Part shown: positions 9,153 through 43,038 of the stretch, in pieces
Numbering within the stretch: position 1 is the first letter of the stretch
Layout: each line of letters begins with the position of its first letter
Assembly: GCA_949752735.1 (NCBI GenBank)
Contig: OX457051.1
Span: 647,501 to 711,500, forward strand
DNA: 64,000 bases
From: Lumbricus terrestris
Lineage: Eukaryota; Annelida; Clitellata; Crassiclitellata; Lumbricidae
Reading direction: 5' to 3'
The notes under the pieces: model-generated
What the model was told of the DNA's origin: nothing
What the model saw: only the letters and a program-made list of their open reading frames with translations
Databases searched by the model: none
Program-made: the position numbers and the translations under genes

Positions 9153-9235
9153 GCGATGGTGATGCCATTCAGAAGCGAGCATGTCATTGGGGATGTTGGG
9201 GCTTCCTTGGGTGCGCAATCCGATGCGGCGTGTAG
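9153..9235 (+). CDS. Cysteine-rich peptide gene A, exon 3 (Lys-Arg site and mature peptide)
   Basis: Entered in phase 1 after a TAG acceptor, the exon reads GDGDAIQKR and then an 18-residue mature peptide to the TAG stop at 9233-9235. The peptide has four cysteines at its positions 2, 6, 12 and 16, a CX3C-X5-CX3C frame starting with CHWGC. It is mostly small and hydrophobic, with one arginine. Homology to exons at 20567 and 32807 is clear in the acceptor, the IQKR cleavage site, the CxWxC start and the 3' UTR. No exon 1 or 2 of gene A was found upstream. Either they lie outside the window or they were displaced by the retroelement pile-up at 5-7 kb. The exon may therefore be orphaned. Function is unknown; secretion is inferred from genes C and D. 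Confidence 0.72.
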
Positions 9236-9450
9236 CCTAACGTCATCTGCTCGTCCACAGTGAGCCGCCGCCAGTACGACGCATTGCAGAGTTCTGGCTT
9301 TACTTGAGCGAACATAAATAATTAATTAATTTTGCATTGCGTTGAATACCATGCTCAAAAGAAGCACGGCGATTGATTTAGTTGGAGCTATTTTCGTACA
9401 TTTTTCTAATTAAGGCTTAAATATAGTTATTTTCAGTAACATATTTCTTT
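9236..9450 (+). promoter_or_regulatory. Conserved 3' UTR of gene A with stem-loop
   Basis: GTCATCTGCTCGTCCACAG and the following ~80 nt are nearly the same in genes A, B and C. A stem-loop lies at 9349-9369 (CCATGCTC, 5-nt loop, AAGCACGG; two imperfect pairs). The UTR is better conserved than the mature peptide coding sequence. Confidence 0.55.
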
Positions 9451-9530
9451 CCGTTTATTTTACCCTGATTGCTATCTAATATTATGTTAAATCATATTTT
9501 TGGTATTCATATTGCGAGATTTTCAATGTT

Positions 9531-9757
9531 TGCTTGTATTTGTTTGTATATGCACTTGCTATAGCGCCCCTTAAAGCTCTCTTTACTCAGAGGCGCTCCC
9601 GACTGCAGAGCGATCACTGCATCGGAGTTTCACGCCGAAGCGCCGAGAAATTGCGAGTGAAAGACTTGCCCAAGGTCCTTACGCGGCGACTTGAGGTGGA
9701 TTCGAACCTGCAACCCACCGGCTGCAAGGCAACAAACATACCCGCTACACTAGAGCG
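9531..9757 (-). mobile_element. tRNA-derived SINE (family 1)
   Basis: On the minus strand the element reads from a tRNA-like head with a B-box (GGTTCGAATCC, diverged) through a body with GCGTGAAACTCCGATGCAG to GGGCGCTATAGCAAGTGCA and an AAACA-type tail. Copies lie at 20965-21190 and 30537-30772 (minus) and at 42303-42530 (plus). Confidence 0.7.
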
Positions 9758-10319
9758 CTCCATAATTGTTATAACAATTGAATATTTCCAAAAAACGGAA
9801 ACTTTAAGATGACTAGGCCTACGCCACAACGCAAGAGTTTGGGAGACTAACCCTAAACCCCACGGCGCTTCGGACACAAACAAATCTGTCTATTCCATAA
9901 AGGAGTCTCTAGGATTTTAAAAGGTCGATAACTGACTTTCAAACGACAGAGCATTCAAAGCCATAGCAATGGACAACGTTTTTAGCATAATTATTTTCAT
10001 GTTGTATTCCTAACGGTTGAAAATTTCGTGATATTTTCTATTGATAGCTGGGCTTCGACAGAATGATAATTAACATGGTGGCATAAACGGATGTTCTGAT
10101 TATATTATGTGTCAAAACGTTTTTATCGTCTGATTATTAAACTGAATGACTCGTAATCAGACAACCACACAAGTTATAATGAGCGTTGTTTGTTGTTAAG
10201 CGGTTGATCCACTGTTTAGCTAGGAAGGTTATAGCTGAGGGGTTTGTGGCTTTGTACAAAAGGTTGTAGGCCTATATTGGCTGCTATCAGATGACAATCT
10301 ACTGTCAATGTGAATACAA

Positions 10320-12470
10320 GATTCTAAAAAGAGATAGTTTTGATGGGTGTTTTAAACATCGATTTGTTGAAACACAGTGATCACGCGCTGACAAACAATT
10401 TACTAGACTGCATCTCATCCCATCATTTTCTACCTGACATACTACAACCTACACGTATAACAGTTACTGATACTACCTCTACACTAATCGATAAAATATT
10501 TACTAATACATGGCCTAGACATGTGAACTCTTCGATGATTGTCACTGATCACTTACCCATAATGGGGTGGTATCTTTTGCAACACACAAAGCAAGACAAA
10601 CCAACATCATAATAATACTACGTAACTATGAGAATCATAAATGATCAGGCGGTAGACCAATTTATACTGCTCCCATCGCAATCTGATTTCAATCCCGTCT
10701 CAGACCTGTGTACAGAAAACGATCCCCAAAAAGCATATGGAACTTTTCTTGATGTGTTTGCGAATGCATATAACACGGTTCCCACTGATAACAGTGAATA
10801 AGCGTAATCGTCAAACTTTCAGCCACCCTTGGATGACTAAGGGACTTCTAGCATCTTGTAGAAAGAAAACAAACTTGTATTTAAAATACATAAAAGAATC
10901 CAAACCCGACGAGTAAAAAACCGTTTATTACATATAGGAACAAATTCAAAATGGTCAAGATTAATGCAGAACGCTATAACTATGCTGCTGAATTTGTAAA
11001 ATATAATAAAGGTAATAAAAAACATGGAATGTCATAAAAAAAACTATAGTTAATTCGAAGACTGATGATACTATAATTGAATCACTGACAATTAATGGCG
11101 GGAAAAATCAATAATTACTTCACTGGAATTGCTCAGAATCTATCGAAAAACAATCCCGTTTCAACTAGTTCGTTTACGAATTACCTGAAACCCTCACCCT
11201 TTCATTCATTTGCTGTGATCCCAACATCGCCTGAAGAATTACTAGAGTTAAACCAAGCTCTGAAACTCACTCATAGTCCTGGACCGGATCGGCTTGATCC
11301 GAGAATAGTTGGTCCAAACCTGGATCGTATAGCAATCCCACTAGTCAATATAAGCAATTGTTCCTTAATAACAGGAATAGTACTCGATGAATCTACAGTT
11401 AGGCTACTCCAGTATTCAAAACAAAATAATAAAGACGACTTAACAAACTATAGACAGATATCGATATTGCCTTATATACTTCTCTAAATTACTAGAAAAA
11501 GTAATGCATCACAGTCTGCATATTATATAACTACATATCCAAATTCATTATTCTACACCCCTTTCAGAACGGCTTTAGATCAGGTCATTCGACTGCAATG
11601 TCACTGATAAATATCGAAGATCAGATTTCCGAAGCCATTGATAATAATGAATTTCCATAGGAATATTTTTAGATCAAGCCAAAGCATATCACACTGTTGA
11701 TCATGAGATACTAATTAAAAAATCAGAAAACTACGGTGTAAGGTGTATCCCTCTTTCCTGATTCAAAGATTATCTTAGTCATAGACAACAACGAGTCAAA
11801 TACAATGGCGCAACTTCACGCTGGAAATTAATTTAATTTGGAGTACCACAAGGATCAATATTAGGTCCTCTGCTATTCTTCTTATACATCAACGACCTTC
11901 CCAATATATCATCTATCCTGCATTTTCCGATGAGGAATTATTCCGAACCCTTAATGAAGAACTTGTACTAGTGTCTGATTGGATCAAGGCGAACAAACTA
12001 TCTCTTAACTTGACAAACCCCAACTACATTCTCTTCTACTCTCATAGGAAATCAACTCCACAACTGAGGGGAAAAGTCTATAATAATTATTATGGAGAAT
12101 ATCGATATTCCACAAGTTGAATATGTAAAATTTCTTGGAGTCTATGTGGTCCAACATTTAACCTGGAGTGTACACATAGAACATATTGCACTGAAACTGG
12201 CTAAAAATATAGGAATATGCCTACTAACTCGAATATCTTATTTACTGCTTAGAAACATTCTGCTCACCTTATACTAATCTGTGATATACCCGTACATATC
12301 CTAGTGTAACACGATATGAGCATCCAAGTGCAACTTTCGCCTTCACAGAATTATTGTTTTGCAGAAAAGAATTGTCAGATTAATAGCTGGTTCTCCTTAC
12401 AACTCGCACTCAGAAAAGTTATTCACGCAGCTCGGGATTCTAAAAGTTTTACAAGTTAAACAATTGCATA
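10320..12470 (+). mobile_element. CR1/Jockey-superfamily LINE, decayed copy 1
   Basis: Broken frames give the end of an APE-type endonuclease at 10340-10610 (NIDLL..., STLIDKIFTNTW, DHLPIM), an RT start at 11095-11487 (SPGPDRLDPRIV, then NYRQISILP), a later RT block with GVPQGSILGPLLF at about 11840-11890, and the C-terminal LGVYV...LTW block at 12092-12277. Internal stops and frameshifts make it inactive. It is nearly collinear with the copy at 21740-24165, at the same place in the duplicated unit, so the insertion preceded the duplication. Confidence 0.8.
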
Positions 12471-13795
12471 TGTGTGAATTCATGCATCGATAGTCTTATT
12501 ACACATTGCCTATCTCCCAAGCCAATCTCTTTACCCTAACCTCAGACATACGCTCCTACAACACGAGAAACCTAGCCTCATATAGAACTGAACGTGCCCC
12601 AACAAACTCTAGAAAATTCTCCATTAGGCCTAAGTGTGCAGGTCCCGATGAATGGAACAGAATACCTCAAAAACCTTCGCAGTATCCCAAATCTTAAATT
12701 AATTAAGCCATAGATGTAAAGAAAACGATGGAAATGGAATTTTTAAAAAGGAAAACGTCGTGTTATTCGAAAAAAAACGGGGGAAAACGCCAACAAATGG
12801 AAACGGAAAATAATTTGACTTTGTATAAGATATTCACCTGCATTTTAAACTTAAAACCAAATCTATGCAATTTTCTCCTACTATTATTAGTAAATAACGC
12901 AACTTTATTAGTAGACCAAACTTAATGATAAGTAACTTTAATCTACAACATTTAATTATCTTTCTTATAGATTTGGTTTAAAAAGAAAATGAGAAAAATT
13001 TAAAGGTAATCAAATTCTTTCAAATTTAAATTGTGAACATAGGTACACATAAGAATGATAAAATCATGCTGATCAAGATAGCACAATTAAAATCTAATCA
13101 GAAGTAAAGACTATAAGCTTAGATGTATACTGAATTATATATACAATATAGGCTAGTAGGCTACATAAAATTGTATCCTAAGTAAGCTTAGTCTAGACCT
13201 AAGATGTTTATAGCAAGATAACTCTTATAAATTTCACTTCCTGTAGTGACCTACTACATGTAGGCCTATTTCTAAAATGATGACGTTAAAGCAATTAAAT
13301 AATGACATCAGTTAGACTTGCTGAATTCTTGAGAATACGGTGAAAATGTAAGGAATATCAGAAAAAATAAAATTAACGAAAATAATAAAAAAATTATCTA
13401 CTTAATTACCCTTACTTAGTGTTTCCTATTTTCCTACTTAGTCAAGGTTTGATGTTTTTAGTTAATTTTTCTTACTTTACATAGTTTTGTATTGATTTTT
13501 TAGTTAATAGTTAGTGGGTCTATTTCTAAAATGATGATGTGAACAATTGAACATGAGTTCACATAAGAATGATAAGATGTGATGTGATGCTATATATCTT
13601 GTTTGCTCCTGTGCTCTATTGCTTTAACGGCATCATTTTAGATGCTTAACATCATCATGTTTAAATCTACATTATTATGTAGTATCGTGATGTTAAACAT
13701 TGGGTCGATTAGTTTTCTTAGTTAAGTTTTCATTTATAATGATGGAATATAGAATATAAATTTCTGTAGACGTCACGCTTATAATTGTAGTGAAC
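12471..13795. other. Insertion within LINE copy 1, no gene recognised
   Basis: This stretch interrupts the LINE relative to its paralogue at 23970-24000. It includes a further piece of LINE C-terminal-like sequence at 12506-12697 (RSYNTRN...WNRIP) and AT-rich DNA with GTAGGCCTA motifs. Confidence 0.5.
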
Positions 13796-13985
13796 CTGTT
13801 AACGCTTAGGCCTAATACCAGAAAATGTGCATAGGTGGCCCTAACCAGCGGGACTCTGCAGCTCCTTTTGCATGGGTTCCCGTTTGTTACCAAAAGTTTT
13901 CATGTCTATTTTGATGTGATGCCATATCCTGTTTGCTTCTTGGCTCAATAAAAAATTGATTGATTGATTGATTGATTGATTAATA
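13796..13985 (+). mobile_element. 3' end of LINE copy 1 with (TTGA)n tail
   Basis: Matches 23995-24165. It ends in GGCTCAATAAAAAATTGA followed by tandem TTGA units, a simple-repeat tail typical of this LINE superfamily. Confidence 0.7.
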
Positions 13986-15375
13986 ACTATAAGCGTCTTT
14001 CGCTGTAATTTATCAGCAAGAGATACATGTAGCCTACATGTATTTAGGCAACGGTCGTGCTATCGTGGTCGCACAATGACACAACTTTATAAGTAGGCCA
14101 AAATTAACTATAAGTGACATTGATCTTGAACAGTAATTTTTTTTATAACTTTGGTCTAATAAGAAATTGATAAAAATTCAATGTATTGAAATCATATCAA
14201 ATTGAAATTGTAGGGTATAAAAATAAGTCCGCGTAAGTTTATGCTGATCGACATAACGCAATTAAAATCTAATCAGAAGTGAATAGGCTACTATAGATGT
14301 GTAGGCCTACCGGTACTAAATTATATATTGTACTTAAAATTGTTACTTATAAGCCTGTATGACAAAGACTTTTATTAAAAAAATAACTCTTGTAGGTTAC
14401 ATATCTTGTATGTAACTACCACATGTATTTCTTAAATAACACTACTCGGCTGAATCATTGAGAGTGGCCTACAGTGAAAGCGTATGGAATCAGACAAAAA
14501 TAAAATGAAGGAAAATAATGACAGACAGTAAACAAATAATTAAATAAAGCCATATAAAAATAATAAGACGGAATAAAACGATTCGAAAACCCCGAGTCAA
14601 AAATAATAAAAACGAAAAGAGCATGTTTTACACGACAACGGCTACGATATTCGAGGGTCATTTGGATCGGTGTTAGAGGGAGCCATTGAATGCGGAGAAT
14701 ATACATGTATGAACGAGAGGCACGGATACTAAATGAACTTAGTTTGGCACAACAGAATGGGATCCTGGCAGGAGTTACGAATGAATGTCGCTCTATCATT
14801 TGGAAGCGAAAACAACTTGGGTGTAGGCCATAGTGCTCAGCGATATTTAAATAAATACGTATTACATAATCGTAATCTCTAGACTTCTACAGCGCCCACA
14901 AGAGCCAAGGCGCGGGAACCAGCTTATTCACAGACGCTTAATCAAAACAAAATAAGCTTACATATAATTATTATTGTACACGACTGGCGAATAAAAATTT
15001 AAAAAAATTTCCATATGCTCTCAATAACTCCGTAAAGATCTCGAAGTGTGGAACGTAGGAAACCAAAGTTCTCTCATTTTTCTCATTTGACTATAAACTG
15101 ATTTATAACATTGACCATAATGTCACACGGATTCCTACATCTTCCATGTAACCTTGCCTTTGGGGTCACACTCAGCAACTTCTGCACTGTGCTTTTTATG
15201 GCGCATTGAAGCTCTAAGTACACAGGCCGTGTCTTGACAGTAGACTAACTCAAGAACCCTTTTCCTCTAACACTTAGCATCAACAACCAGACAGACAGGC
15301 GCCTTTTACGGTTGCCGCTACTTTACTTTATGTTTAAAATGTTTTTATTACATTATTATTACTATTATACTTATC
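13986..15375 (+). other. Duplicated 5' flank of peptide gene B
   Basis: Collinear with 24166-25020 upstream of gene C. The stretch at 15120-15330 also resembles 38745-38870 upstream of gene D. Homology to C stops at about 15375, just before the promoter and exon 1 would be expected. No coding sequence was seen. Confidence 0.6.
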
Positions 15376-15439
15376 TAAATTTATTCAATTAAAGTTAAAA
15401 CATCTATTTCAACACTATATTCATTCAAGTTATAATCAG

Positions 15440-15880
15440 CATCATTGATGCGACAAACTGACCTTGACCATAACCTCATGACCTTCAGATGACCTCTTAT
15501 GGCAAAAACAATGTCAGAAATGAATTCTACATAACCTGAATCAGTAACATTAGAGGTATAACACATGTATATGCTGTAATAAATGAAACATATGAAACTC
15601 AGTGACCTTGACCTTGACCTCTACAACCTCAAGATGACCTCTGATGACAAAAGCAATATCATAAATGAATTCTACATACCTGAATTAGTACCATTAGAGG
15701 TATTACACGTGCATAAGCTGAAAGAAATGAAAAAGATGAAAAAATGCCCTTGACCATGACATTATGACCTCAAGACGACCTCTGATGACAAAAACAATAT
15801 CAGAAATGAATTCTACTTACCTGAATCAGTACCATTAGAGGTATCACACGTGCATATACTGCAGGAAATAAGGAAGATGA
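15440..15880. repeat. Tandem repeat of about 150-170 bp, roughly three units
   Basis: Each unit repeats TGACCTTGACC, ATGACCTC, GACCTCTGATGACAAAA, AGAAATGAATTCTAC and ACCATTAGAGGTAT. It stands where gene B lost its promoter and exon 1. Confidence 0.75.
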
Positions 15881-16059
15881 ATTTTACAATATGGCGGGCG
15901 GCGGCCATATTGGATTTGTCAATTACGTCATTCGTGACGTCATGCCAGACAAGCACCTCGGTGATTTTTCATGTCCAGGGACCCACTGACCGATTGGAAG
16001 TGAGAAACTCCCCCAACACCATTTTGCAAACGGGACCTCATGGCACATAAAGGACTACT

Positions 16060-16836
16060 ACTCGAACCGTCCGCTCCTGCGTTATGGATCGAACACCATA
16101 CGATCTGAAGAAGGGACACAGCAAGGCGATCCTTTGGGTCCTCTGGAGTTCTGCCTTGTCTTACAACCACTTTTGGTCAAACTGAGATCAATTCTGCGTG
16201 TTGGTTACCTGGATGACCTGACATTGGGTGGTAGCAGGGAGACAGTGGCCGCTGATGTCCTTCTGATTGCGCAAGAATCGAGGAACCTTGGTTTGACATT
16301 AAACCGCAGCAAATGTGAAATCGCCTGCCACAACTCACATGCACTACTTGATGACCCGGCGTTTGAAGGTTTTACGAACATGACCTTTGAGGAGATGACT
16401 TTGCTGGGTGCACCTCTGATGCCAGGTCCAGCTGTGGAGATGGTCGTCGGATCGAAGGCCAACGATCTTGATAGGGCAATCGCAAGGCTCTCCATGCTGT
16501 ATACACATGATGCTCTGGTTCTGCTCAAAAACAGCTTAAGCGTTCCAAAGCTGCTTTACAGCTTGCGCACAGCTGTATGTACTGACTGTCCGGGCTTGGC
16601 TCGGTTCGACAACTTATTAAGAGTAGGTCTGTCAACCATCTTGAACGTGGACCTTGACGACGACCGCTGGCTCCAGGCTTCTTTGCCTGTCAGAGATGGT
16701 GGCCTTGGAGTTCGTTGTGCATCAACGCTGGCACTTTCTGCCTTTCTGGCTTCCGCCGCTAGCACGAGCGAACTGCAGGCCTGCATCCTACATACAGAGC
16801 CAGCTGATGTTCCATATGTTCTTGCAGACTCCACCG
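16060..16836 (+). mobile_element. Non-LTR retrotransposon RT fragment
   Basis: RT motifs follow one another: QGDPLGPLEF at about 16120, then GYLDDLTLGG at about 16203 (the catalytic box, YLDD instead of the usual Y/FADD), then the thumb and connector to GGLGVRCASTLALSAFLASA. The frame 16134-16830 is open for about 230 codons. It is the same family as 26317-27610 (minus). The endonuclease part is lost where Helitron-like sequence begins. Confidence 0.72.
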
Positions 16837-17100
16837 GCGAAATTTGGTTTCCCGGAAAAATTTCTGTCCAATTGCAACGTTTGAGGTGAATAAGTGTGAA
16901 ACTGTGCATGGCAACTGCTGAAAAAAGTAGAGGGAATTAGGGTTTTTGTCTCCCACCTTGGCGACCCGCCTATGACCTGCCCCGGGTCTACCCCGACCCT
17001 CCCTGAGATGGATAGGAGTCGATTGCTTCAAAACTGTGGCCGTCTTCATCTAACAAACAAACAAACAAGCAAAGCCACAAACACACAGACTTACGAAGAT
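16837..17100 (-). mobile_element. Helitron-like remnant in intron 1 of gene B
   Basis: Matches 29495-29720 in gene C, including GTTTGAGGTGAATAAGTGTG and the 5' end reading (minus) TCTGTGTGTTTGTGGCTTTG. Only a scrap of the minisatellite remains (CTCCACCGGCGAAATTTGG). Confidence 0.5.
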
Positions 17101-17203
17101 ATAATTATATGAGATTAGTGACCAAGAAGTTGATAGAAGTTGAACGTATGTTCGGAGTAAAGATTGCATATTGCGCATAAGTGTCTTGCTATTTTTTAAA
17201 CAG

Positions 17204-17350
17204 GACGTGACAATGGAGAAATACAAAGTCTGTATGAAGAATGGAAGACAATTCAACCGGAGGGAAGTTCTACATCGTTCGAGAGTTATCTCAATTGGCT
17301 GCAAAACCAAAAGACTTCGCGAGAGCTCGACGCTGACGCTGTTGACGCAG
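17204..17350 (+). CDS. Cysteine-rich peptide gene B, exon 2 (acidic pro-region)
   Basis: The exon is 147 nt, phase 1 at both ends, between acceptor TTTTTTAAACAG and donor GTAAAA. It encodes 49 residues of acidic pro-region (about 10 Asp/Glu against 4 Lys/Arg), including SLYEEWKTI and SYLNWLQNQKTSRE. It differs from exon 2 of gene C by two nucleotides, one silent and one Thr to Ala. It joins in phase to exon 3 at 20567. Pro-regions of this kind usually neutralise a basic peptide and are removed at Lys-Arg. No exon 1 was found between 15375 and 17203, so this copy may be silent or may use a different first exon. Confidence 0.75.
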
Positions 17351-17593: not shown

Positions 17594-17595
<2 letters not shown>

Positions 17596-19475
17596 CCTAA
17601 GAGAATGCTTTGTCAAGCTTGTTTTCGCTAACGCCATAAAAACAGCCTGAGTCGCGATGTCATGCTGAAGGCCGCGCTTGAAGCTATCCCCGAGAATTAA
17701 CCTTTTTTGTCCATCAGGCTTATGGGACCGCCTCTCTTCTTAGGTTTGGCAAATTCTCAATTCCTTCACAAATGGGGCCCCAACAAGGGGACCCTCTCGG
17801 CGCTTTACTCTTTTGCCTGCCTCTGCAGACCATTCTTCGCTCTTTGCAGTCGACATTCCAATTATGGTACTTGGACGACCCCTCCTTGGGAGACCATAGG
17901 GAGACAGCAGCCCGGGATGTCGGACTGATCCGCCATCTCGGTCCTGCAATGGGTCTCCATCTGAACTGCGACAAATGTGATTGTACTCCCGCAGCGGGGG
18001 CTTCGGGGACGATCACCGCTGGTCGGATTTCCAACGCCTGGACAGTCATTCGATCACCCTACTTGGGGCACCCTTCTTCAAGGGACAGGCTTTAGATGGC
18101 TGCCCTGGTGTTCGACAATGTGGACTCTTAGGTGTTACCATCAAAAACCTACATAGTGTGCCATCTCAAAGCGCCATTATACTGTTAAGATCCTCATTTG
18201 TTGTCCCTAGGATTAGTTATCTGCTCCGCTGCTACCCTTGCTCTAACCACTCAACCTTAGAAAGGCTTGACAACATCATGAGAGAAGGCCTTGAATCCAT
18301 CGTCAACATCAAGCTAGACAACACCCAATGGCTGCAGGCCACGCTGTCCATCAGACATGGCGGTCTGGGCGTGAGGAGGGTTGAATCGCTGACTTCTTCT
18401 GCCTATACGCATTTACTGCAACAGCCCTTGCACTCCAGTCAGCCTTTCCTGGTCTCAGCTCGGTGGCATCCCATCCGCATATGGGTGATATCTTGATGGC
18501 TCGTAGGAAAACACTTCTATCTTGTGTCGACCCGTTGCCGGCTAAACAGGCAACTTGGGACAAGCCAGTGATCGAAGCAGATAAATCGCCAATTTGGGAT
18601 AACAACAATAACCAAATTGACCGAGTGCGCTTGCTGGCAGTGAGCCCCATTCACTCAGGCGACTGGTTGACAGTCCTTCCAATCCCATCGTGAGGCCTCT
18701 GTGTCAGCAATGAGGCAGCGAGCGTGGAAGTTGGCCTTCGGTTGGGTCTGAGTCTCTGCAGCCCACATCCATGTGGCTGCGGTGCTCTGGTGGGCCCTGA
18801 TGGCCAACACGGTCTCGCATATAGATTGGCTTTTGGGCGGTCCCTACGTTATCACGCCATCAATGATATAGTCTGGCGGGCGTTGCAGAGAGCTGTTGTC
18901 CCAAGTTCTAAAGAGCCGTCTGGTCTATCTCGAATAGACGGCAAGATACCTGGTGGGGCCACACTGATCCCCTGGGCAGCAGGCAAACATCTGGCCTGTG
19001 ATGCCACGGTGATACACACCTGCGCGGCATCCTACATCACTTACACAGCGAATGTGGCGGGATCCTCTGCGGAACAAGCCGCCGTAGGCCCTACGTAAAA
19101 CCGAGAAGTATGTGGGGGCCGCCATCATCACACCTCTTTGTTCCCATTGCCCTGGAAACACTGGGCCACATCAACTCTGCCGGTCTCAGCTTCATCCGCG
19201 AGGTTGGTCAGCGTCTCTCGGTCGTCTCTGGAGCGCCGCGAGAGGTGACCTTTCTATTCCAGCGCCTTTCTATCTGTATTCAGCGCTATACAGCGCCATA
19301 GCATTTCGTGGCACTTTTACTATACTGTTGCGGAGGACGAGGCCTGATTTTCTAAACATTGAACAACGGCGCCAAGCATAATTTGTTGAAATCCCGAGAG
19401 ACACAAGTTACCTCGGGGAAAAAAATCCCGAGGGATCATTGATACCTCAGGTAAAAAATACAAAAATAATAATAA
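17594..19475 (+). mobile_element. REL-type non-LTR retrotransposon, RT plus endonuclease, decayed
   Basis: It starts in the RT (FVKL..FANA) and passes GPQQGDPLGALLF and WYLDDPSLG at about 17772-17890. The endonuclease part (18724-19100) has CGCGALVGPDGQHG, RYHAIND, then IPGGATLIPW (PD changed to PG) and CDATV. Several frameshifts are present. The 3' end at 19390-19460 has two successive hairpins (CCCGAGAG...CCTCGGGG, then CCCGAGGG...CCTCAGG). Trinucleotide arrays lie at both ends. Collinear with 30161-32170 in gene C. Confidence 0.78.
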
Positions 19476-19480
19476 GAAAA

Positions 19481-20566: not shown

Positions 20567-20655
20567 GCGATGGTGCTGTCATTCAGAAGCGAGAATGTCA
20601 TTGGAAATGTACGAGCGGCTCTAAGACAAAATGCAAAGTTAAATGCCACGATTAG
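20567..20655 (+). CDS. Cysteine-rich peptide gene B, exon 3 (Lys-Arg site and mature peptide)
   Basis: After a TTTGTAG acceptor the exon reads GDGAVIQKR and then a 20-residue mature peptide to TAG at 20653-20655. Cysteines sit at mature positions 2, 6, 14 and 18 (CX3C-X7-CX3C), starting with CHWKC and ending KCKVKC plus two residues. It carries five lysines and two acidic residues, so it is basic. CX3C...CX3C is the disulfide frame of helical-hairpin peptides (alpha-hairpinins, kappa-hefutoxin type); only the spacing is shared, and homology is not claimed. The propeptide would come from exon 2 at 17204. Confidence 0.8.
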
Positions 20656-25299: not shown

Positions 25300-25773
25300 C
25301 AAGCGATTGATAGTCATTAGTAAACTGATCGACGCCATTTTAAATGATTTGTACTCCAATAGAACGTTATTAAAGTCCCTTCTCTGTCAAGCGTTTATGC
25401 TTTATTGGCAGTAGCCTATTATAGCCTATAAATTACCAATTTATAGTCACGTGGTTGTAATTTATTTCTGCAATAAACTATCTGATGATATCATGATTGC
25501 TGAACGGTAATGGATCACCGCGGTTTAGTTGAATTCAAAAGGTAAAAAAATAGCGAGTAATTTATCACAAAGCAAAGAATCATCGACAATGTTGGGTCCA
25601 CAACATACTTCAAACTAGGTAGAGAACAGTAAATCAAAAGCAGCCGAAATCAGAAGCTCGGTCAACGTTCTTGCCTTTCTATAAATGACAGAGCGTAGTC
25701 GTAGGATAACGTGGAGGCCCAACTACTCTGAACCCGACGCATTTCTCGATACTTTCCTAGAAGACAGCAGAAG
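25300..25773 (+). promoter_or_regulatory. Promoter and 5' UTR of gene C
   Basis: A TATAAAT box lies at 25680-25686, 94 nt before the ATG at 25774. The same box lies 94 nt before the ATG of gene D, and the surrounding sequence (CTTTCTATAAATGA, then AGAGCG.AGTCGTA, CGTGGAGGCC, CAACTACTCTGAAC) is shared. Start of transcription about 30 nt after the box, giving a ~60-nt leader, is inferred. Upstream similarity to D extends to about 25260. Confidence 0.68.
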
Positions 25774-25870
25774 ATGATTCGTCTGCCGTTCCTTGTGCTT
25801 CTTGTTCTGGTGGTGGTAGGGTGTTCCATCGCCGCTCCAGTTGAAAATGGCGCAGAATTTGTCGAGCTTG
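25774..25870 (+). CDS. Cysteine-rich peptide gene C, exon 1 (signal peptide)
   Basis: The ATG follows the shared leader AGCAGAAG. The exon encodes 32 residues plus one base: a hydrophobic core LPFLVLLVLVVVG, a likely signal-peptidase site after CSIA, then APVENGAEFVEL, the start of the acidic pro-region. The donor is G|GTAAGG. Length and phase equal exon 1 of gene D exactly. It continues in phase with 29821-29967 and 32807-32895, giving a precursor of about 110 residues directed to the secretory pathway. The first intron (3.9 kb) is swollen by retrotransposon, ATT arrays and a Helitron-like element. Confidence 0.82.
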
Positions 25871-26316: not shown

Positions 26317-27610
26317 TTACAAAGGCAATGTGGACGAGAAACAGATGGCGTTCCCCCGCTGGACTGCCACCGAGATTCTTTGAAGAAGGTAACTCGTCTC
26401 GAGTCTGTCCTGAGTCGCCTCGGTCAACCTTCGTCCCAGGTCTAAAACAAAGTCCAGTCCCTCCGAGCTCCAAGAACCACCGGACTCCAATGCCACCGCC
26501 ACGAAGGCATGTGTCCGAGTGACTGCGGCGTACTTTGTTCTTTTGGCGACGGCTGCCTGGTTTGCGGCCTCGCCCGCTCCTGCTGATGTTGCTGCCAGAT
26601 GCGATGCCGCAAAGGTGTCTGACACTGTCACATCCCAAGTGAGACATCTCCCACATGACCAGGGAATAAGCGTCACACTGTCCGGCCGCTTTCATCCTCC
26701 CTGCTGAGCCCTAACGGCTCCTTCTGCGATGGAATATTCGCTCTTCTTAAGGCGCGCCATATGATGTCATTCAGCATATTATGGCGTTGTTGTCTGCCCG
26801 AGTTCTTTCTGCAAGCCAGACCGTGGAGTCCTCTGGCGTCGACTCTTTCGCCACAGTGACACAGGTGTGGTTGGCAGAGAGTTGCCCCGAGTCGCATTCC
26901 AACTGAAATCCTTATTACTTCATCGGACAGGCGCAGACCCAGAGCTGTTACCGGAGGTGCTAACAGCCAATCTCCTGCGTGTGGTGCCTGAGAGGCTAAG
27001 AGTCGAGCCCGGTCAAGTGCTGTACTCGCTGAATCGTTCAGGGATGCCCATGCCTTTTTGATCCAGAGGCTATCCCATTCTCTTTGACGGTGTGCTGCTG
27101 ATCCGGATGGTGGCTCGGATCCCGTGAATGTTGACCATGCGTTTAGCGCTGTGTCCACTACGTCGTCCGAGGTGTCAGCTGTTTCTGGTGGCAGTATGTT
27201 TGCTTGAAGTTCGCTAGTGCTCGCAGCAGATGCCAAGAAGGCAGAAAGTGCCAGCGTTGCAGCACAGCGTATTCCAAGCCCACCATCCTTCACCGGTAGG
27301 GATGCCTGAAGCCACTTCTCGTCCGATAGCTCCACGTTCAGTATGCTTGATAAGCCTTTTCTCAACAAAGAATTAAATCTAGTGAGACTAGGACAGTCGA
27401 CGCATAAGGCAGTGCGCATTGTGTAGAGGAGCTTTGGTACACTCAATCCATTACGCAATAGGATTAAAGCATCATGCGACTGAAGCATGGACAACCTCCC
27501 TATAGCTCGTTCCAGGTCTTCTGCCTTCTTGCTCACTACCTTATCAATGGCCGGCCCAGGCATCAGAGGTGAGCCTAGCAGCGTCGCTTCTTCCAATGGC
27601 GTGTTCTTGT
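26317..27610 (-). mobile_element. REL-type non-LTR retrotransposon, RT C-terminal part plus endonuclease
   Basis: Minus-strand frame 27596-26673 carries the RT thumb/connector (EDLERAIGRLSML...GGLGIRCAATLALSAF) and the Cys/His cluster CHCGERVDARGLHGLAC with QRHNMLND. A frameshift at about 26675, just at the PD motif, moves to frame 26676-26317 with TLIPW...LTWDVTVSDT. One frameshift is the main visible damage, so this is a relatively young copy. ATT arrays bound both ends. Confidence 0.78.
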
Positions 27611-29820: not shown

Positions 29821-29967
29821 GACGCGACAATGGAGAAATACAAAGTCTGTATGAAGAATGGAAGACAATTCAACCGGAGGGAAGTTCTACATCGTTCGAG
29901 AGTTATCTCAATTGGCTGCAAAACCAAAAGACTTCGCGAGAGCTCGACGCTGACGCTGTTGACACAG
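29821..29967 (+). CDS. Cysteine-rich peptide gene C, exon 2 (acidic pro-region)
   Basis: 147 nt, phase 1 at both ends, acceptor CTTTTAACAG and donor G|GTAAAT. It encodes 49 pro-region residues with net charge about -6. A Tyr-x-Glu-x-Lys-x-Ile pattern, a Ser-Ser/Ser/Glu run, YLxWLxxQ and TxRE are shared with gene D exon 2 (39950), which points to a structured, not merely acidic, pro-segment. Two nucleotides differ from gene B. Confidence 0.85.
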
Positions 29968-30160: not shown

Positions 30161-32240
30161 TACCCCCAGAGAATGCTTTGTCAAGCTTGACTTCGCTAAC
30201 GCCTTAAAAACAGCCTGAGTCGCGATGTCATGCTGAAGCCCGCGCTTGAAGCTATCCCGGAGATTTACCTTTTTGTCCATCAGGCCTCTCTTCTTAGGTT
30301 TGGCAAATTCTCAATTCCTTTGCAAATGGGGCCCCAACAAGGGGACCCTCTCGGCGCTTTACTCTTTTGCCTGCCTTTGCAGCCCATTCTTCGTTCTTTG
30401 CAGTCGACATTCCGATTATGGTACTTGGGCGACCTCTCCTTGGGAGACCATAGGGAGACAGTAGCCCGGGATGTCGGACTGATCCGCCATCTCGGTCCTG
30501 CAATGGGTCTCCATCTGAACTGCGGCAAATGTTTGCTTTGTTTGTTTGTTTGCATGTGCACTTGTTATAGCGCCCCTTCAAGCTCTCTCTACTCAGAGGC
30601 GCTCCCGACTGCAGAGCGGACACTGCATCGGAGTTTCACGCCGAAGCGCTGAGCAATTGCGAGTGAAGGACTTGCCCAAGGTCCCTACGCGGCGACGTGA
30701 GGTGGGTTCGAACCTCGGACCTTCCGGCTTCAAGGCAACGACGCCACCACTACACCACCGCGCCCCACAAGATGTGATTGGTACTCCCGCAGCGGGGGCT
30801 TCGGAGACGATCACCGCTGGTCGGATTTCCAACGCCTGGACAGTCATTCGATCACCCTACTTGGGGCACCCTTCTTCAAGGGACAGGCTTTAGATGGCTG
30901 CCCTCGTGTTCAACAATGTGGACTCTTAAGTGTTACCATCAAAAACCTACACAGTGTGCCATCTCAAAGCGCCATTATACTGTTAAGATCCTCATTTTGT
31001 TGTCCCTAGGATTAGTTATCTGCTCCGCTGCTACCCTTTGTCTAATCACTCAACCTTAGAAAGGCTTGACAACATCACGAGAGAAGGCCTTGAATCCATC
31101 GTCAACATCAAGCTAGACAACACCCAATGGCTGCAGGCCACGCTGTCCATCAGAATGGCAGTCTGGGCGTGAGGAGGGTTGAATCGCTGGCTTCTTCTGC
31201 CTATACGCATTTACTGCGACCGCCCTTGCACTCCAGTCAGCCTTTCTTGGCCTCAGCTCGGCGGCATCCGATCCGCATACTAGGGGTGATATCTTGATGG
31301 CTCGTAGGGAAACACTTCCATCTTGTGTCGACCCGTTGCCGACTAAGCACTAGTAAGCAGACAACGTGGGACAAGCCAGTGATCGAAGCAGATAAATCGC
31401 CAGTTTGGGATAACAACAATAACCAAATTGACCGAGTGTGCTTGCTGGCAGTGAGCCCCACTCACTCAGGCGACTGGTTGACAGTCCTGCCAATCCCATC
31501 GTGAGGCCTCTGTGTCAGCAATGAGGCAGCGAGCGTGGAAGTTGGCTTTCGGTTGGGTCTGAGTCTCTGCAGCCCACATCAGTGTGGCTGCGGTGCTCTG
31601 GTGGGCCCTGATGGCCAACACGGTCTCGCATATAGATTGACTTTTGGGAGGTCCCTACGTCATCACGCCATCAATGATATAGTCTGGCGGGCGTTGCAGA
31701 GAGCTGTTGTCCCAAGTTCTAAAGAGCCGTCCGGTCTATCTCGAATAGACGGCAAGAGACCTGATGGAGCCACACTGATCCCCAGGGCAGCAGGCAAACA
31801 TCTGGCCTGGGAGACCACGGTGGTACACATCTGCGCGGCATCCTACATCACTTACACAGCGAATGTGGCGGGATCCCCTGCGGAACAAGCCGCCGTACGT
31901 AAAATCGAGAAGTACGTGGGGCTGCCATCATCACACCTCTTTATTCCCATTGCCCTGGAAACACTGGGTCCCATCAACTCTGCCGGTCTCAGCTTCATCC
32001 GCGAGGTTGGTCAGTCGTCTCTGGAGAGCCGCGAGAGGTGACCTTTCTATCTGTATTCACCGCTACAACGCCATTGCATTTCGTAGCACTTTTACTACTG
32101 TTGCGGAGGACGAGGCCTGATTTTCTAAACATTGAACAACGGCTCCAAGCATAATTTTTTGAAATCCCGAGAGATCCAAGTTACCTCGGGTAAAAAAATC
32201 CTGAAGGATCATTGATACCTCGGGTAAAAAATACAAAAAT
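30161..32240 (+). mobile_element. REL-type non-LTR retrotransposon, decayed, split by a SINE
   Basis: Collinear with 17594-19475. RT motifs GPQQGDPLGALLF and LWYLGDLSLG (YLDD changed to YLGD) lie at about 30330-30440. A SINE splits it at 30537-30772. The endonuclease part at 31535-32041 keeps CGCGALVGPDGQHG and KRPDGATLIP, but WDATV is changed to WETTV. Two hairpins close the 3' end (about 32160-32225). Catalytic losses in RT and endonuclease make it dead. Confidence 0.78.
30537..30772 (-). mobile_element. tRNA-derived SINE (family 1) inside the retrotransposon
   Basis: It interrupts a segment that is continuous in the paralogue at 17970-17985, with a short ATG-containing target duplication. 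It is absent from unit B, so it inserted after the B/C duplication. Confidence 0.75.
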
Positions 32241-32806: not shown

Positions 32807-32895
32807 GCGATGGTGCTGCCATTCAGAAGCGAGGATGTCGTTGGAAATGTAAGAGCCGCAAGAAGACAAAATGCGTAGTCAAATGCAGCGATTAG
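32807..32895 (+). CDS. Cysteine-rich peptide gene C, exon 3 (Lys-Arg site and mature peptide)
   Basis: Phase 1 entry; GDGAAIQKR and then a 20-residue mature peptide to TAG at 32893-32895. Cysteines at mature positions 2, 6, 14 and 18 (CX3C-X7-CX3C), starting GCRWKC. Eight Lys/Arg against one Asp make it strongly cationic, against a pro-region of about -6; this charge balance is common in antimicrobial precursors. Compared with gene B the mature part differs at 7 of 20 residues but keeps every Cys, the Trp and the cleavage site. Role (antimicrobial, venom-like or signalling) is open. Confidence 0.86.
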
Positions 32896-36420: not shown

Positions 36421-36443
36421 TCTTCGGTCGCACTGTCCTTCTC

Positions 36444-36489
<46 letters not shown>

Positions 36490-36492
36490 CGG
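36421..36492. repeat. (CTGT)n(CT)n microsatellite
   Basis: CTGT units followed by CT units on the + strand. Confidence 0.9.
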
Positions 36493-38639: not shown

Positions 38640-38735
38640 GTTAATTCGTCAGTTAACGTCTGGTTGATTGATCGGTTGATTGATTGATTGGTTGATTGAT
38701 TGGTTGATTGATTGATTGATTGATTGGTTGATATT
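38640..38735. repeat. (TTGA/TTGG)n microsatellite, probable LINE tail
   Basis: Units of GATT and GGTT, like the (TTGA)n ends of the two large LINE copies, and at the same place in the gene unit (immediately 5' of the gene flank). Confidence 0.7.
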
Positions 38736-39425
38736 ATCTACCATGTAACTTTGGTTGGAGTCCCACCCAGCTACTTCTGCCTAGTGTCCGTTCATGTCGT
38801 ATTGAAGCAGTTCAAACCCTGTCTTGACAGAAACTGTTCTGTCCATTAACAATAAATCTATTAAGCCTTTCGAGTGATTTACATTGGCATGCAGTCGTTT
38901 CAAACCCATCATTTGCAATATGTCATTGTAAAAACGTTTTCATTTGTCCAATATGTATTTAGTGGTTTTTCTCTGCCAATTGAAGCAATTGATAGTGATT
39001 TGCAAACTAATCGCCGTCATTTAAAGTAATTTGTGCCTCAATTGTATGCTATTAAAGTCACTTCTCTGCAATCTGTTATGCTTATTGCTAATTATAAATC
39101 AATTTATAATCAAATGGAACTAGGCCTGGTTTATATTTAGGCTATATAGGTCTATGCAATAAATTATCTAATAAATGGGGCATACTGACCTTTAAAAGGG
39201 CCAATGTGGTTTATTGACAAAATCATTATATTTACCACACAGCGAAGAACAAACGATAAAGTCGGACTCACAACATACTTCAAACCAGATAGAGCGGTAA
39301 ATAAGAAGCTGGATGACCGATCATGTCTTTCTATAAATGAAGGAGCGAAGTCGTATGCAAACGTGGAGGCCAACTACTCTGAACGCGACTCATTGCTCGA
39401 TATCTTGGTCAATAACAGCAGAAAG
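38736..39425 (+). promoter_or_regulatory. 5' flank, promoter and leader of gene D
   Basis: Homologous to the gene C flank (24780-24940 and 25260-25773). TATAAAT box at 39332-39338, 94 nt before the ATG. AGAAAG precedes the ATG. Confidence 0.68.
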
Positions 39426-39522
39426 ATGAACAGCCTTTCGGTCGTTTTGCTGTCGTTTCTGGCGGTGATGAGTTGTTCCATCGCGAGTCCAGTCGATTCT
39501 GGCGCAGATCTGGTCGAGCTTG
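39426..39522 (+). CDS. Cysteine-rich peptide gene D, exon 1 (signal peptide)
   Basis: Encodes 32 residues plus one base: hydrophobic core LSVVLLSFLAVMS, likely cleavage after CSIA, then SPVDSGADLVEL. It is aligned without gaps to exon 1 of gene C, with the acid residues and VEL kept and the core freely substituted. Donor G|GTAAGA. It joins to 39950-40096 and 42914-43038 for a precursor of about 120 residues. Introns are 0.4 and 2.8 kb. Confidence 0.83.
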
Positions 39523-39949
39523 GTAAGAGTAGACAATCACTTCATTGGTTTCTTCATTGGTCTTCATTTTCTGTATCCATGTGCAAACGAAATATTTTCA
39601 GTGCAGAACAGTAATGTTTTTTAAAAGGCGAAAAATGTTATCAAGGACAGCTCTTTAAAAGCGGGTCCAACAATGAGCTTGACAATAACTGGATCACAAG
39701 GAACCACTCTGTGACTCCAGATATTAGCCGATGCAGTGTAGCCTACATTGAGGAGTCGTGAACCACATTTAAACCTCCATAAGTCTTATTGTGAAACTCC
39801 TTGCACCGACAGATATATCTCTCGGTTTGCATGATTGAGGCTTAGGGAAGATTACAAAGGAATGGTTACTTGGATTTTTAAAGTGACTTTCATTATATTT
39901 ATTTAAGAAAATCCATATAATAGAGAAAGTTTTTTCTATTGTTTAAAAG
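39523..39949 (+). other. Intron 1 of gene D
   Basis: Unlike in gene C, this intron is short (427 nt) and free of recognisable transposons, so it may be closest to the ancestral form. It ends in a polypyrimidine tract and TTTAAAAG. Confidence 0.65.
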
Positions 39950-40096
39950 GACACGACTATGAAGAACTACAAAATCCGTATCGAGAGTTGAAGGACATTG
40001 AATCAGAAGACAGTTCTAGATCATTAGAAAACTATCTCGGATGGTTGAGGGAACAAAGGACTTTGCGAGAGTCTGAAGCTGACGATAGTGACACAG
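39950..40096 (+). CDS. Cysteine-rich peptide gene D, exon 2 (acidic pro-region)
   Basis: 147 nt, phase 1 at both ends, same length as in B and C. It encodes 49 residues, about 15 acidic and 6 basic, with YRELKDIESEDSSRSLENY and LGWLREQRTLRE aligned to the B/C pattern. Roughly half of the residues differ from B/C, so D split off earlier than the B/C duplication. Confidence 0.85.
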
Positions 40097-40589
40097 GTAA
40101 ATATTTGATTATAAAAATCCCTTTCTATTTAAATATCCGTTTCTCATGTTCATAAATGTTCGTTATTAATGCTACAATAACTAAGAAATTCAACTGGTGA
40201 TTCAATTCAATGTTGCAAAAGAGCAAACGGGTTAATTGTAGGTTTATCCTAAAGTGTAGCGAGGGCCTGCACATTATGGTGGAGTGAAAAATGAACCTGA
40301 TACTTCAGAATCACAGAGTGCGAAAACGTTATCTTCTGTGCACATTATGCCATGGGCTTAAAATAATATTTTATCCAATAATATTATAATATTGTATTAT
40401 TTATTCATTCATTCAAGAATTTACATGCCACTTCTCTCAGGGGACTACTCAGAAGCGCTCCCGACTTTAGCACGACAAAAAAGACAGTTTTGAGTTTATC
40501 TATATAAATAAAGAGAAGATTCTGTGTGTTTAACCGGAATGCATTTCCACAGTTTTTGAGCTTTTCACTCCAAACCTTCACTGCTGTGT
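40097..40589 (+). other. Intron 2 of gene D, first part
   Basis: Contains a probable LINE or SINE 3' fragment at about 40400-40600 (minus; ATTCATTCATTCA tail, CAGAAGCGCTCCCGACT). No coding sequence. Confidence 0.4.
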
Positions 40590-41902
40590 CCGTCTTGGCA
40601 TCGGACGCGTAACAGAGGGGTTCGCGAATCTCTGCCACCATTGGGGCCAGAGTGGGGGCCAAAAATCCCTCATTTTCCCTGTTGGACTCTGCCCTTTCAA
40701 GCTTATAACAGCACTTTTCTTTCGGGTCTCATACGTAATACGTATAAAGCAGCCGTTCGACAGAGTTTAGAGAACAGCGCTTTTGCCAGTTTCACGGGTC
40801 GGGTACCGGAGGAGGTCGGTGGTGGGGTGGTGGTGGAATTGGAGGGTGGAGTTGGGTGGATGGGTGGGTGGGGGGCGAAGGGGATGGAGTGGGGTGGTGG
40901 GTAGAGGGCCAGGGTGGAGGTCGGGTTTTTTGGGGAATTGTTTTTCCCAAAAACCAAAATTTCACGGGTGGCGTACCAGTGGAAATCGGAGTTAGTGGTC
41001 GCGTGTTGCGGGGAGGGGGTGAAAGAGGGGTGAAGGGGAAATATTTGGGGGAAAAATGTTTTCCCCAAACATTTCCCGAAACCGAATTTCACGGGTGGCG
41101 TACCGGTGGAAATCGGAGTTAGTGTTCGCGTGTTGTGGGAGGGGTGAAAAAGAGGTGGGTGGAAAATTTGGGGGGTAAAATTCCCCCCCAAATTTTTTTC
41201 CCGAAAACCAAAAATTTCACGGGTGGTGTACCGGTCAAGATCGGAGTTAGTGGTGGCGTGTTTTGGGGGGAGGAAGCGGGGTGGGGGAAGAAATTGGGGG
41301 GGGGAAATTCCCCCCTTCAAATTTTTCGAAAACCAAAATTTCACCTGGGGCGTACCGGTCGAGATCGGAGTTAGTGGTGGCGTGTTGTGGAGAGGAGGGG
41401 TAGAGGGGTGGGTGAAATTTTGGGGGATTAAATTCAACCCCAAATTTTTCAGAAACCGAATTTCACGGGTGGCGTACCGGTGGAAATGTGTTTTTGGGGG
41501 GTGAAAAGGGGGGAATTTTGGGGGTAAAATGTTTCCCCCAACAAATTTTCCGAAAACCAAAATTTCACGGGTGGCGTGGAAATCGGAGTTAGTGGTCGCG
41601 TGTTGTGGGGTGGGGTCAAAGATGTGGGGGGAATTTTGGGGGAGAAAATTTTCCCCTCCAGAATTTCCCGAAAACCAACATTTCACGTGTGGCGTACTGG
41701 TGGAGGTCGGAGTTAGTGGTGGCGTGTTGTGGGGCGGGGATGGGGAGAGGGAAATTTGGGGGGTTCCTCCGAAAAACAAAATTTCTTAGGTGGTGTACCG
41801 GTGGAGGTCGTACTGTGGTGGGGTGTGGTGTGGTGTGGTGGAGTTGTGGTCGGAACGGGTCGAATCCTAAATTTCCCGGGCAACGCCGGGTACCCCAGCT
41901 AG
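40590..41902 (+). mobile_element. Helitron-like element with long internal minisatellite (intron 2 of gene D)
   Basis: A 5' domain at about 40610-40770 (GCGAATCTCTGCCACCATTG) is followed by about nine units of roughly 115-130 bp, each with AACCAAAATTTCACGGGTGG, CGTACCGGTGGAAATCGGAG and GTGGTCGCGTGTTGTGGGG. The 3' end has CCCGGGCAACGCCGGG at about 41876-41890 and terminal CTAG at 41899-41902 before T. No protein. Confidence 0.6.
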
Positions 41903-42302
41903 TAATTATTATAATTGGATTTAGTTAACTTCTCGAGGTAGCTCAATGACCCCCAAAATACAAAAAACATACACTCAACAGCTGTTTCTCTATTACAGAG
42001 GTATGTTAACTTTGCCTACAAAAACAATAGAACTGCTTATGTTGAGCGATGTTTTCGACGTTTGAGCCTGTGATGCCAAAGCTGATGCAAATAGTAGACC
42101 TAGACCTCGATTTCTTGCCGTTCTATGAAGAAACTGACCTACTCCTAAATTATAGTGATTCCAATTTCAATCAAGCGAGTTCGTGTAATAATGCGTAAAG
42201 GTCGGTCGTTTTTACCTGGAGATGGGGGAGGGGGAATTTGCTACAAACTTTTCCTTAGGGGAAGTTCACCCAAAGACGTCTAGATTAAACACTGTCGTTT
42301 GT

Positions 42303-42530
42303 TTGAGGCGCGGTGGTGTAGTACGTATGTTTCTTTGCCTTGCAGCCGAAGGGTTGCAGGTTCGAAGCCACCTCAAGCCGCCGCGTATGGACCTTGGGCA
42401 AGTCCATTACTCGCAAGTGCACAGCGCTACGGCGTGAAACTCCGATTCAGTGTCCGCACTGTTATGGGGAGCGATCCTGAGTAGAACCTTGAAGGGGCGC
42501 TATTACAAGTGCACATGCGAACAAGCATAA
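42303..42530 (+). mobile_element. tRNA-derived SINE (family 1), plus orientation
   Basis: Head with GGCGCGGTGGTGTAGTACG and B-box GGTTCGAAGCC, body with GGCGTGAAACTCCGATTCAG, end GGGGCGCTATTACAAGTGCA. The most complete of the four copies. Confidence 0.7.
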
Positions 42531-42569
42531 AACTAGCTTAATGCCCCCACTCGATTCCAGTCACAGCGG

Positions 42570-42770
42570 GACACGGTGATGGAGCGATAATGTTCTGCCC
42601 CTTGTGACCGAATGGTCGCAGGTTCGAATCTACCTCACGCCGATGCGTATGGCCACCCTGGACAAGGTGCTCAGCCACAATTAATTATCTGTGAGGACGG
42701 CAAGGAGAAACCACCTCAATCACCCATCTCATTCCCTGAGGCATAAAAGCCAATGAACCTGTTTTCGGGC
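42570..42770 (+). mobile_element. tRNA-derived SINE (family 3)
   Basis: A tRNA-like head with GTCGCAGGTTCGAATCTACC (B-box) is followed by an unrelated body ending near CTGAGGCATAAAAGCC. It differs from family 1. Confidence 0.5.
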
Positions 42771-42913
42771 AGAGAAAACGTAATCGTCAGCGTCCTTTCA
42801 GTGGTTACGTTCGAACTTAGCTTCAAAATTTTCGTGTAGCCTACCTGTAGCATAATCTGTAAGCTTATCATTTACCACATTCATTAATTATTGTCATTTG
42901 ATCTATTTTTCAG

Positions 42914-43038
42914 CCGTCGTTGCAGCTCCCGTTTCGAAGCGAGGATGCTTGTGGTCGTGGACATGTTGGTGTTGTCCATTTCGATGCGGATTTCGCTGTA
43001 ACTGGGAGCTCGTCATCAGAATTGGTCGTGCGACATGA
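42914..43038 (+). CDS. Cysteine-rich peptide gene D, exon 3 (Lys-Arg site and six-cysteine peptide)
   Basis: After a TTTTTCAG acceptor the exon, in phase 1, reads AVVAAPVSKR and then a 31-residue mature peptide to TGA at 43036-43038. Six cysteines lie at mature positions 2, 8, 10, 11, 15 and 19 (CX5CXCCX3CX3C), in a Trp- and Arg-rich context (CLWSWTCWCC, then CGFRC), followed by a cysteine-free tail ending IRIGRAT. The tail holds a Gly-Arg that could be an amidation/cleavage signal. The CX3CX3C end recalls A-C, but the frame is different. Signal, acidic pro-part and Cys-rich Trp-containing peptide are the layout known from sea-urchin strongylocin-type antimicrobial peptides; homology is unproven. 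Confidence 0.78.

Follow-up and report, generated by a model that had tools for sequence, protein, structure and literature searches.

The nearest working model for the genes considered here comes from polychaete annelids. The BRICHOS antimicrobial peptides (AMPs) arenicin, alvinellacin, capitellacin and nicomicin are made as precursors that consist of a signal peptide, an acidic pro region, a dibasic cleavage site and a short C-terminal disulfide peptide. According to the available portion of one source (PMC6265681), BRICHOS has been proposed as a universal polychaete pro domain, comparable to cathelin, and this one pro domain carries beta-hairpin as well as helical peptides. We propose a similar arrangement for a family of secreted cysteine-rich peptide precursors in the earthworm Lumbricus terrestris, found in a 64,000-nucleotide window (the whole stretch of DNA analysed, C17:647501-711500; coordinates without a prefix are positions in it), and for its relatives on C6. 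The two systems differ, however, in that the C17 pro part is a small repeatable exon and in that BRICHOS peptides are, as far as the available text of the annelid immunity reviews cited below goes, reported from polychaetes only. Moreover, BRICHOS was absent among the Pfam matches at E<=1 in all eight precursors scanned; a genome search with PF04089 gave no match, but its control also matched nowhere.

Cathelicidins, in which the pro domain is constant and the antimicrobial peptide, C-terminal and encoded by the last exon, is variable, follow a logic that the C17 family shares. The likeness is one of analogy only, and Pfam at E<=1 showed no cathelin-like domain in any of the eight precursors. 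Tachyplesin, polyphemusin and gomesin are of similar length to the C17 mature peptides and have two CX3C pairs, but the CX3C-X4-CX3C formula of tachyplesin and capitellacin is not that of the C17 peptides, which have X5-X7; the likeness is one of form. The order of mature and pro parts in tachyplesin-type precursors also differs from that on C17, where the mature part is C-terminal and the pro part N-terminal. Macins (theromacin, neuromacin) are likewise Cys-rich annelid AMPs, leeches included, and are described in the accessible text as quite long helix/sheet proteins; no Pfam family, macins among them, exceeded its cut-off in the precursors, and macins are otherwise set apart by description. 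The sea-urchin strongylocins and centrocins share with the C17 precursors a signal peptide, a pro part and a cationic peptide containing Cys and Trp, but they belong to another phylum and, in a comparison made by description from the excerpts available, have pro parts of 16 and 30 amino acids (aa), versus 70-71 aa in two of the C17 genes (C and D). An earlier note on this DNA had looked to echinoderms for parallels; the host, however, is an annelid, as its mitochondrial gene order indicates, and echinoderm AMPs serve as analogies only. Lumbricins are also earthworm AMPs, but the available descriptions call them proline-rich, whereas C17 mature peptides hold 0-1 Pro. In the parts available, reviews on the immunity of annelids and earthworms list lumbricins and some older short peptides for earthworms, and macins for leeches (PMC6780910, PMC9756803, PMC13295531). 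A literature search that left most subscription journals and bioRxiv preprints outside its reach found no report of the C17 peptide family, which is a weak negative.

From these comparisons and the gene structures described below, we consider it likely, though well short of certain, that the C17 cluster consists of earthworm host-defence peptide genes that follow a cathelicidin-like logic with an unrelated pro domain. The best reading of the sequences is an undescribed AMP-like superfamily with a pro domain of its own, for which we infer the defence function.

Gene structure in the window

The earlier note had described nine exons belonging to four genes, A to D, and all nine lie at the positions claimed, on the plus strand and with correct GT/AG borders. 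Gene A is represented in the window by exon 3 (9153..9235), which was recognized by exon homology and splice borders and encodes IQKR followed by the mature peptide ACHWGCWGFLGCAIRCGV. Gene B has an exon 2 of 147 nt that encodes an acidic pro domain (17204..17350; GT/AG borders, copies elsewhere in the genome) and an exon 3 (20567..20655; GT/AG borders) that encodes the mature peptide ECHWKCTSGSKTKCKVKCHD. Gene C is composed of exon 1 (25774..25870; 97 nt, signal peptide, GT/AG borders), exon 2 (29821..29967; 147 nt, acidic pro domain) and exon 3 (32807..32895; mature peptide GCRWKCKSRKKTKCVVKCSD), and gene D of exon 1 (39426..39522; 97 nt, signal peptide), exon 2 (39950..40096; 147 nt, acidic pro domain) and exon 3 (42914..43038), which encodes the six-Cys mature peptide GCLWSWTCWCCPFRCGFRCNWELVIRIGRAT. 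A TATA box (TATAAAT) begins 94 nt 5' of the ATG in both gene C (25680..25686) and gene D (39332..39338), in a stretch that is alike in other genes of the family. The two complete precursors measure 110 aa (C) and 122 aa (D), and the pro regions of B, C and D have a pI of 4.2-4.4, only the last stub of the pro region of A being in the window.

The exon plan proposed for these genes was reproduced in most respects. Exon 2 is 147 nt in all three window genes that have it and in 8/8 copies across the cluster, both signal peptides end in CSIA, each of the four exons 3 encodes Lys-Arg and then a Cys-rich peptide, and the intron phases are 1-1. The rule that exon 1 is always 97 nt held in the window (2/2) but not in the wider cluster, where the length is 109 nt in gene g3, 121 nt in g4A and 100 (or 97) nt in E. 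Similarly, the three-exon plan fits the models inside the window, but four of the seven cluster models have four exons, with an additional exon 1b between exons 1 and 2. These exons are confirmed and are not a product of chance, since a genome search with exon 2 gives eight strong matches (E 5e-26 to 3e-6) and a protein from elsewhere, P0001, spans the joins. No exon 1 of gene B was found by exon tblastn in the window, including the interval 9236-17203 that separates its exon 2 from exon 3 of gene A; the gene may be a partial duplicate, or it may draw on a signal exon further upstream.

The C17 cluster

Exon tblastn on C17:560001-751000, followed by manual gene modelling, showed that the window covers the central part of a ~152 kb cluster with seven intact gene models and the orphan B (exons 2 and 3 only). 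In addition to C and D, the intact models are g1 (C17:572769-569398, minus strand; exon 1 of 97 nt), g2 (C17:576427-579711; exon 1 of 97 nt), g3 (C17:590575-598975), g4A (C17:610893-656735) and E (C17:719608-721871), in which exon 1 measures 100 nt from the first ATG and 97 nt from the second. The last exon of g4A would be exon 3 of gene A; gene A, previously described as partial, is so in the window, but its exons 1, 1b and 2 are probably those at C17:610893-615101, and the join between g4A exon 2 and A exon 3 would probably span an intron of 41.6 kb. All introns are GT-AG and of phase 1, 18/18 in the seven models and 19/19 when the one in B is counted. Exon 1b (171-174 nt) is present in g1, g3, g4A and E and repeats the pro domain of exon 2 (hhalign between the two: P 1.5e-4, probability 52%). 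Parts of B and C, together with their retroelement surroundings, are mutual duplicates (85-92% in aligned pieces). With their intact frames and clustered arrangement, the genes bear out the earlier description of a family of secreted Cys-rich precursors arranged in tandem.

A TATA box starting 83-94 nt 5' of the ATG was found by pattern in 6/7 genes, and TATAAAC is visible in the seventh (E). As TATAWAW also occurs elsewhere within the same 400 nt upstream in five of the seven, the pattern by itself is weak proof, and the conserved stretch around the TATA box appears to be the better promoter sign. Patterns resembling kappa-B, AP-1 and C/EBP sites were absent from the 400 nt upstream of the seven genes, and AATAAA was found within 600 nt of the stop codon in one of them.

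A protein relative that spans the joins

P0001, a JGI protein of 183 aa on a contig of 1175 bases, was the sole match (E 4e-41) from 328 candidates of a 5.8-billion-protein database, and was again the sole match, among 4327 candidates, in a wider profile search. Its one open frame runs across all three joins and follows the exon order of the g1 model, with the signal first, then the counterparts of exons 1b, 2 and 3; identity to g1 is 75.6% over 168 aa. Its simplest reading is that of a transcript of a related worm from an environmental sample, although it may alternatively be a retrocopy. No Pfam family exceeded its cut-off in any of the eight precursors, and six sub-threshold Pfam matches were taken as chance. 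Matches in PDB (Peptide YY, a designed protein, LRP1 and ferritins) were also considered chance, the best having E 0.024 over a stretch of 18-20 residues. Thus, with one unnamed protein relative, no Pfam family and no convincing PDB match, the view that these peptides do not obviously belong to a named family is upheld.

Mature peptides: subtypes and predicted fold

The nine mature peptides of the cluster and P0001 fall into two subtypes that share four invariant Cys columns. Six are of a four-Cys type, CX3C-Xn-CX3C, with n of 5 in A and g3, 6 in g1 and P0001, and 7 in B and C, and with a length of 18-20 residues; the remaining three are of a six-Cys type, CX3C-X-CC-X3-CX3C in E and CX5C-X-CC-X3-CX3C in D and g2, and have CCPF[KR]CG in common. 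The patterns first noted in the window (CX3C-X5-or-7-CX3C with CxWxC in A, B and C, six Cys in D) are therefore correct. At pH 7 the mature peptides have a charge of +0.8 (A), +3.0 (B), +6.7 (C) and +2.7 (D). Their average masses, calculated for the reduced form, are 1939.3 (A), 2308.7 (B), 2343.9 (C) and 3724.4 Da (D), from which about 4 Da would be lost with two disulfides and 6 Da with three. Seven of the nine have a Trp two residues past the first Cys, which could, speculatively, be brominated: bromo-Trp is described for sea-urchin AMPs in the available part of PMC4805251, and hedistin is mentioned together with bromo-Trp in that of PMC7761999.

The four-Cys peptides are probably beta-hairpins with bonds C1-C4 and C2-C3, by analogy with capitellacin, which, according to the accessible part of PMC7761999, has the formula CX3C-X4-CX3C, bonds C5-C18 and C9-C14 and a beta-hairpin fold. 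The earlier note had compared the peptides to helical-hairpin toxins and plant alpha-hairpinins, and the four-Cys formula of these, XnCX3CXnCX3CXn, is indeed found in A, B, C, g1, g3 and P0001 (6/9), although not in D, g2 and E, which have six Cys. The likeness does not extend to size: alpha-hairpinins are two-helix peptides of 28-51 residues in the portion of PMC7191063 available, compared with 18-20 residues, and 5-7 residues between the CX3C pairs, in the four-Cys peptides. The fold prediction that the note had called for was obtained, but AlphaFold models of P0001 (9 sequences; pLDDT 45, no strand, low-confidence helices of the acidic pro part at 109-122 and 131-142 with pLDDT 54-59) and of D exon 3 (8 sequences; pLDDT 50, no strand, two short helices) are uninformative, their confidence being too low to give a fold. 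That the CX3C pairs form an alpha-helical hairpin, a fold with which a defence role would still be possible, seems unlikely to us; the shared formula speaks for it, as does the short helix that AlphaFold placed, with low confidence, where D has its first pair of Cys, and the length of known alpha-hairpinins, as well as the evidence from capitellacin that a CX3C-X4-CX3C peptide can form a beta-hairpin, speak against it. We prefer a ladder beta-hairpin because the four-Cys peptides combine their short length with a capitellacin-like spacing.

The mature parts differ strongly between A/g3 and B/C. In the four pairs between these types, nonsynonymous change affects 39-50% of mature sites versus 12-14% in the flanking intron and 3' sequence, a divergence 3-4 times that of the flanks (Fisher P 1.5e-8 to 4e-5). 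The A-B pair shows 22/44 mature nonsynonymous changes versus 37/320 in the flanks (P 1.5e-8), and the g3-B, A-C and g3-C pairs have P of 2e-6 to 4e-5; for exon 2, calculated in three of these pairs, dN is 0.03-0.04. Mature synonymous change is, however, also high in the divergent pairs (dS 0.35-1.05, from 9-11 sites), and an excess of mature change is lacking in the two close pairs, B-C (P 0.22) and A-g3 (P 0.65); for these two reasons, positive selection is not claimed. Replacement of the segment encoding the mature peptide (the warhead), or conversion of the flanks, would explain the contrast between A and B/C as well as selection on residues does.

Two other functions have to be weighed against these features. 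Neuropeptide and hormone precursors commonly undergo Lys-Arg processing and yield short Cys peptides, and genes for neuropeptides, hormones or pheromones could have the same signal, pro part, dibasic cleavage and short disulfide peptide; one of the eight precursors scanned, that of C, also has a weak calcitonin/CGRP match in Pfam, below the cut-off (E 0.0023, 18.8 bits vs 22.3). Such a role appears improbable, as variation in the A and B/C types is greatest in the mature part, neighbouring genes differ in Cys number, charge and length, unlike a receptor ligand, and the C6 relatives have strongly cationic peptides. Conotoxins, too, have a signal and pro part that are conserved and a mature part that varies, and the six-Cys subtype has the order C-C-CC-C-C, so that mucus or coelomic-fluid peptides with a deterrent or venom-like action on predators or parasites were considered. 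We give this possibility a low probability: L. terrestris is not known to have a venom apparatus, the six-Cys type has a single residue separating C2 from C3, which seems too tight for a cystine knot, and the C6 relatives look antimicrobial from their computed charge and helical moment.

The pro exon elsewhere in the genome

A search of 1,056,305,194 bases of the genome, in which only the best candidates were scored so that all copy numbers are lower bounds, gave at least 19 matches to exon 2 at E<=10. The eight strong ones (E<=3.1e-6) are all in the C17 cluster, two further ones are copies of exon 1b, and the nine weaker ones (E 6e-4 to 0.4) lie on C6 (6), C9 (2) and C7 (1). The reverse search from a C6 exon gave at least 21 matches, consisting of 13 on C6 (13.22-13.31 Mb), 3 on C9 and 5 on C17, the last being weak (E 0.1-2). 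The C17 pro exons and exon 1b align with the C6/C9/C7 set in hhalign at 9.8e-10 over 36 columns and at 1.6e-7, respectively, values that are optimistic because the set was chosen for its similarity to exon 2. The pro exons are homologous, with a core of Y..W....P.G...SF..F..W, and independent support comes from their borders: at 7 of the 16 C6/C9/C7 loci examined a donor gives exactly 147 nt in phase 1-1 behind a good acceptor, and some of the others fit 123-153 nt.

The C6 cluster has at least 13 units on the minus strand (C6:13221477-13307446; loci L042-L050, L052, L053, L055, L056). C9 has three pro exons (C9:16888107-16910156; loci L027, L051, L054, L060), and C7 a single distant one (C7:16933334-16933459; locus L033) with a signal-exon candidate upstream (106 nt, phase 1). 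One C9 pro exon was also seen to continue into long EDKEKPEDKGKP-type charged repeats. In 5 of the 13 C6 units (L029-L032, L049) the next exon encodes GT[RQH], a cationic peptide and an acidic tail, and in the other eight no such exon was found in the ~1.5 kb downstream of each; one of these eight, L028, has a different cationic candidate with a doubtful acceptor (charge +7.5, helical moment 0.46). The C6 peptides are predicted to be amphipathic helices: the four computed (L032 is near-identical to L031) have charges of +7.6 to +8.8 and helical moments of 0.51-0.80, with peptide ends set by hand and moments taken without a shuffle control. The C6 precursors (exons 2 and 3, no signal) had no match at E<=1 among 310 protein-database candidates. 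The pro exon is thus joined, with its phase kept, to last exons of different kinds, in agreement with the earlier suggestion that the phase 1-1 exons could shuffle.

The genome search also bears on the suspicion that exon 2 is part of a transposon open reading frame. The region is rich in retroelement pieces, but the pro exon is low in copy number, by lower-bound counts, and is not a high-copy transposon frame; in addition, frames and splice borders are intact and P0001 reads across the joins, its possible retrocopy origin aside. A transposon-derived or decayed, functionless set of exons is therefore highly improbable.

A wider proposal is that the pro domain is an earthworm (perhaps clitellate) defence-peptide domain that spread as a 147-nt exon to several chromosomes, was fused to unrelated warheads, and now forms pro-plus-warhead cassettes that splicing would choose behind a shared signal exon. 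It is suggested by the lack of a B exon 1 in the window and by a single weak C6 signal-exon candidate (97 nt, C6:13309018) that lies upstream of all three pro exons in the 10 kb scanned; no convincing C6 signal exon was found in these 10 kb with three consecutive pro exons, by a scan that recovers four C17 signal exons used as controls. We put this proposal forward tentatively and regard it as less probable than not by a good deal.

Proposed function

Each gene encodes a secreted precursor in which the signal peptide (exon 1) is followed by one or two acidic pro domains (exon 2, preceded in some genes by exon 1b; phase 1-1, 147-174 nt); the last exon supplies a Lys-Arg (or Arg-Arg) processing site and a short disulfide-rich peptide. 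Along the secretory pathway the acidic pro domain could neutralise the warhead and chaperone its folding. A furin-like protease would cut at KR and free the mature peptide, and the four-Cys beta-hairpins, like the helical C6 relatives, may attack microbial membranes. Of the kinds of function first considered, immune or venom-like, the former is preferred here, by inference.

Several observations weigh against this reading as a whole. Peptide A is barely cationic, kappa-B patterns are lacking upstream of the genes, the close pairs show no excess mature change while synonymous change is high in the divergent ones, and the AlphaFold models give no fold; the way in which the C6/C9/C7 set was chosen and the C6 peptides were delimited count on the same side.

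Other features

The window also contains a fragment of LSU rRNA (6678-6943, plus strand; Rfam RF02543, 83.7 bits) and retroelement-like open-frame pieces at 16134-16886 (plus strand), with similar ones near 5284, 17720-19098, 26317-27596 and 30230-32041; among those scanned, one resembles reverse transcriptase weakly, below the cut-off (E 1e-4). An open frame of 740 codons on the minus strand (55737-57959) matches nothing in Pfam at E<=0.01. A TTCACGGGTGGCGTACCGGTGG-like unit is repeated in tandem at 40936-41763, and translations suggest the same unit near 1059-2734 and 54319-54714. The mitochondrial genes follow, on one strand, the order nad4L-nad4-C-M-rrnS-V-rrnL-L-A-S-L-nad1-I-K-nad3-S-nad2-cox1-N-cox2-D-atp8-Y-G-cox3-Q-nad6-cob-W-atp6-R-(repeat)-H-nad5-F-E-P-T, as called by ARAGORN for tRNAs (TTT anticodon read as Lys), by Pfam for cox1 and from open frames and gaps for the others; this is the annelid ground order and not an echinoderm one. 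A second COX1 match, split and with an in-frame TGA (C318:35670-38654), is perhaps a nuclear or duplicate mitochondrial piece.

Implications

Soil worms inhabit dense microbial communities. A Cys-rich earthworm family of this kind, if true, would be the terrestrial counterpart of the polychaete BRICHOS peptides on an unrelated pro domain, and thus a case of convergent cathelicidin design. The pro exon could furthermore provide a sequence handle for finding, in other worm genomes, warheads that would be unfindable by their own sequence.

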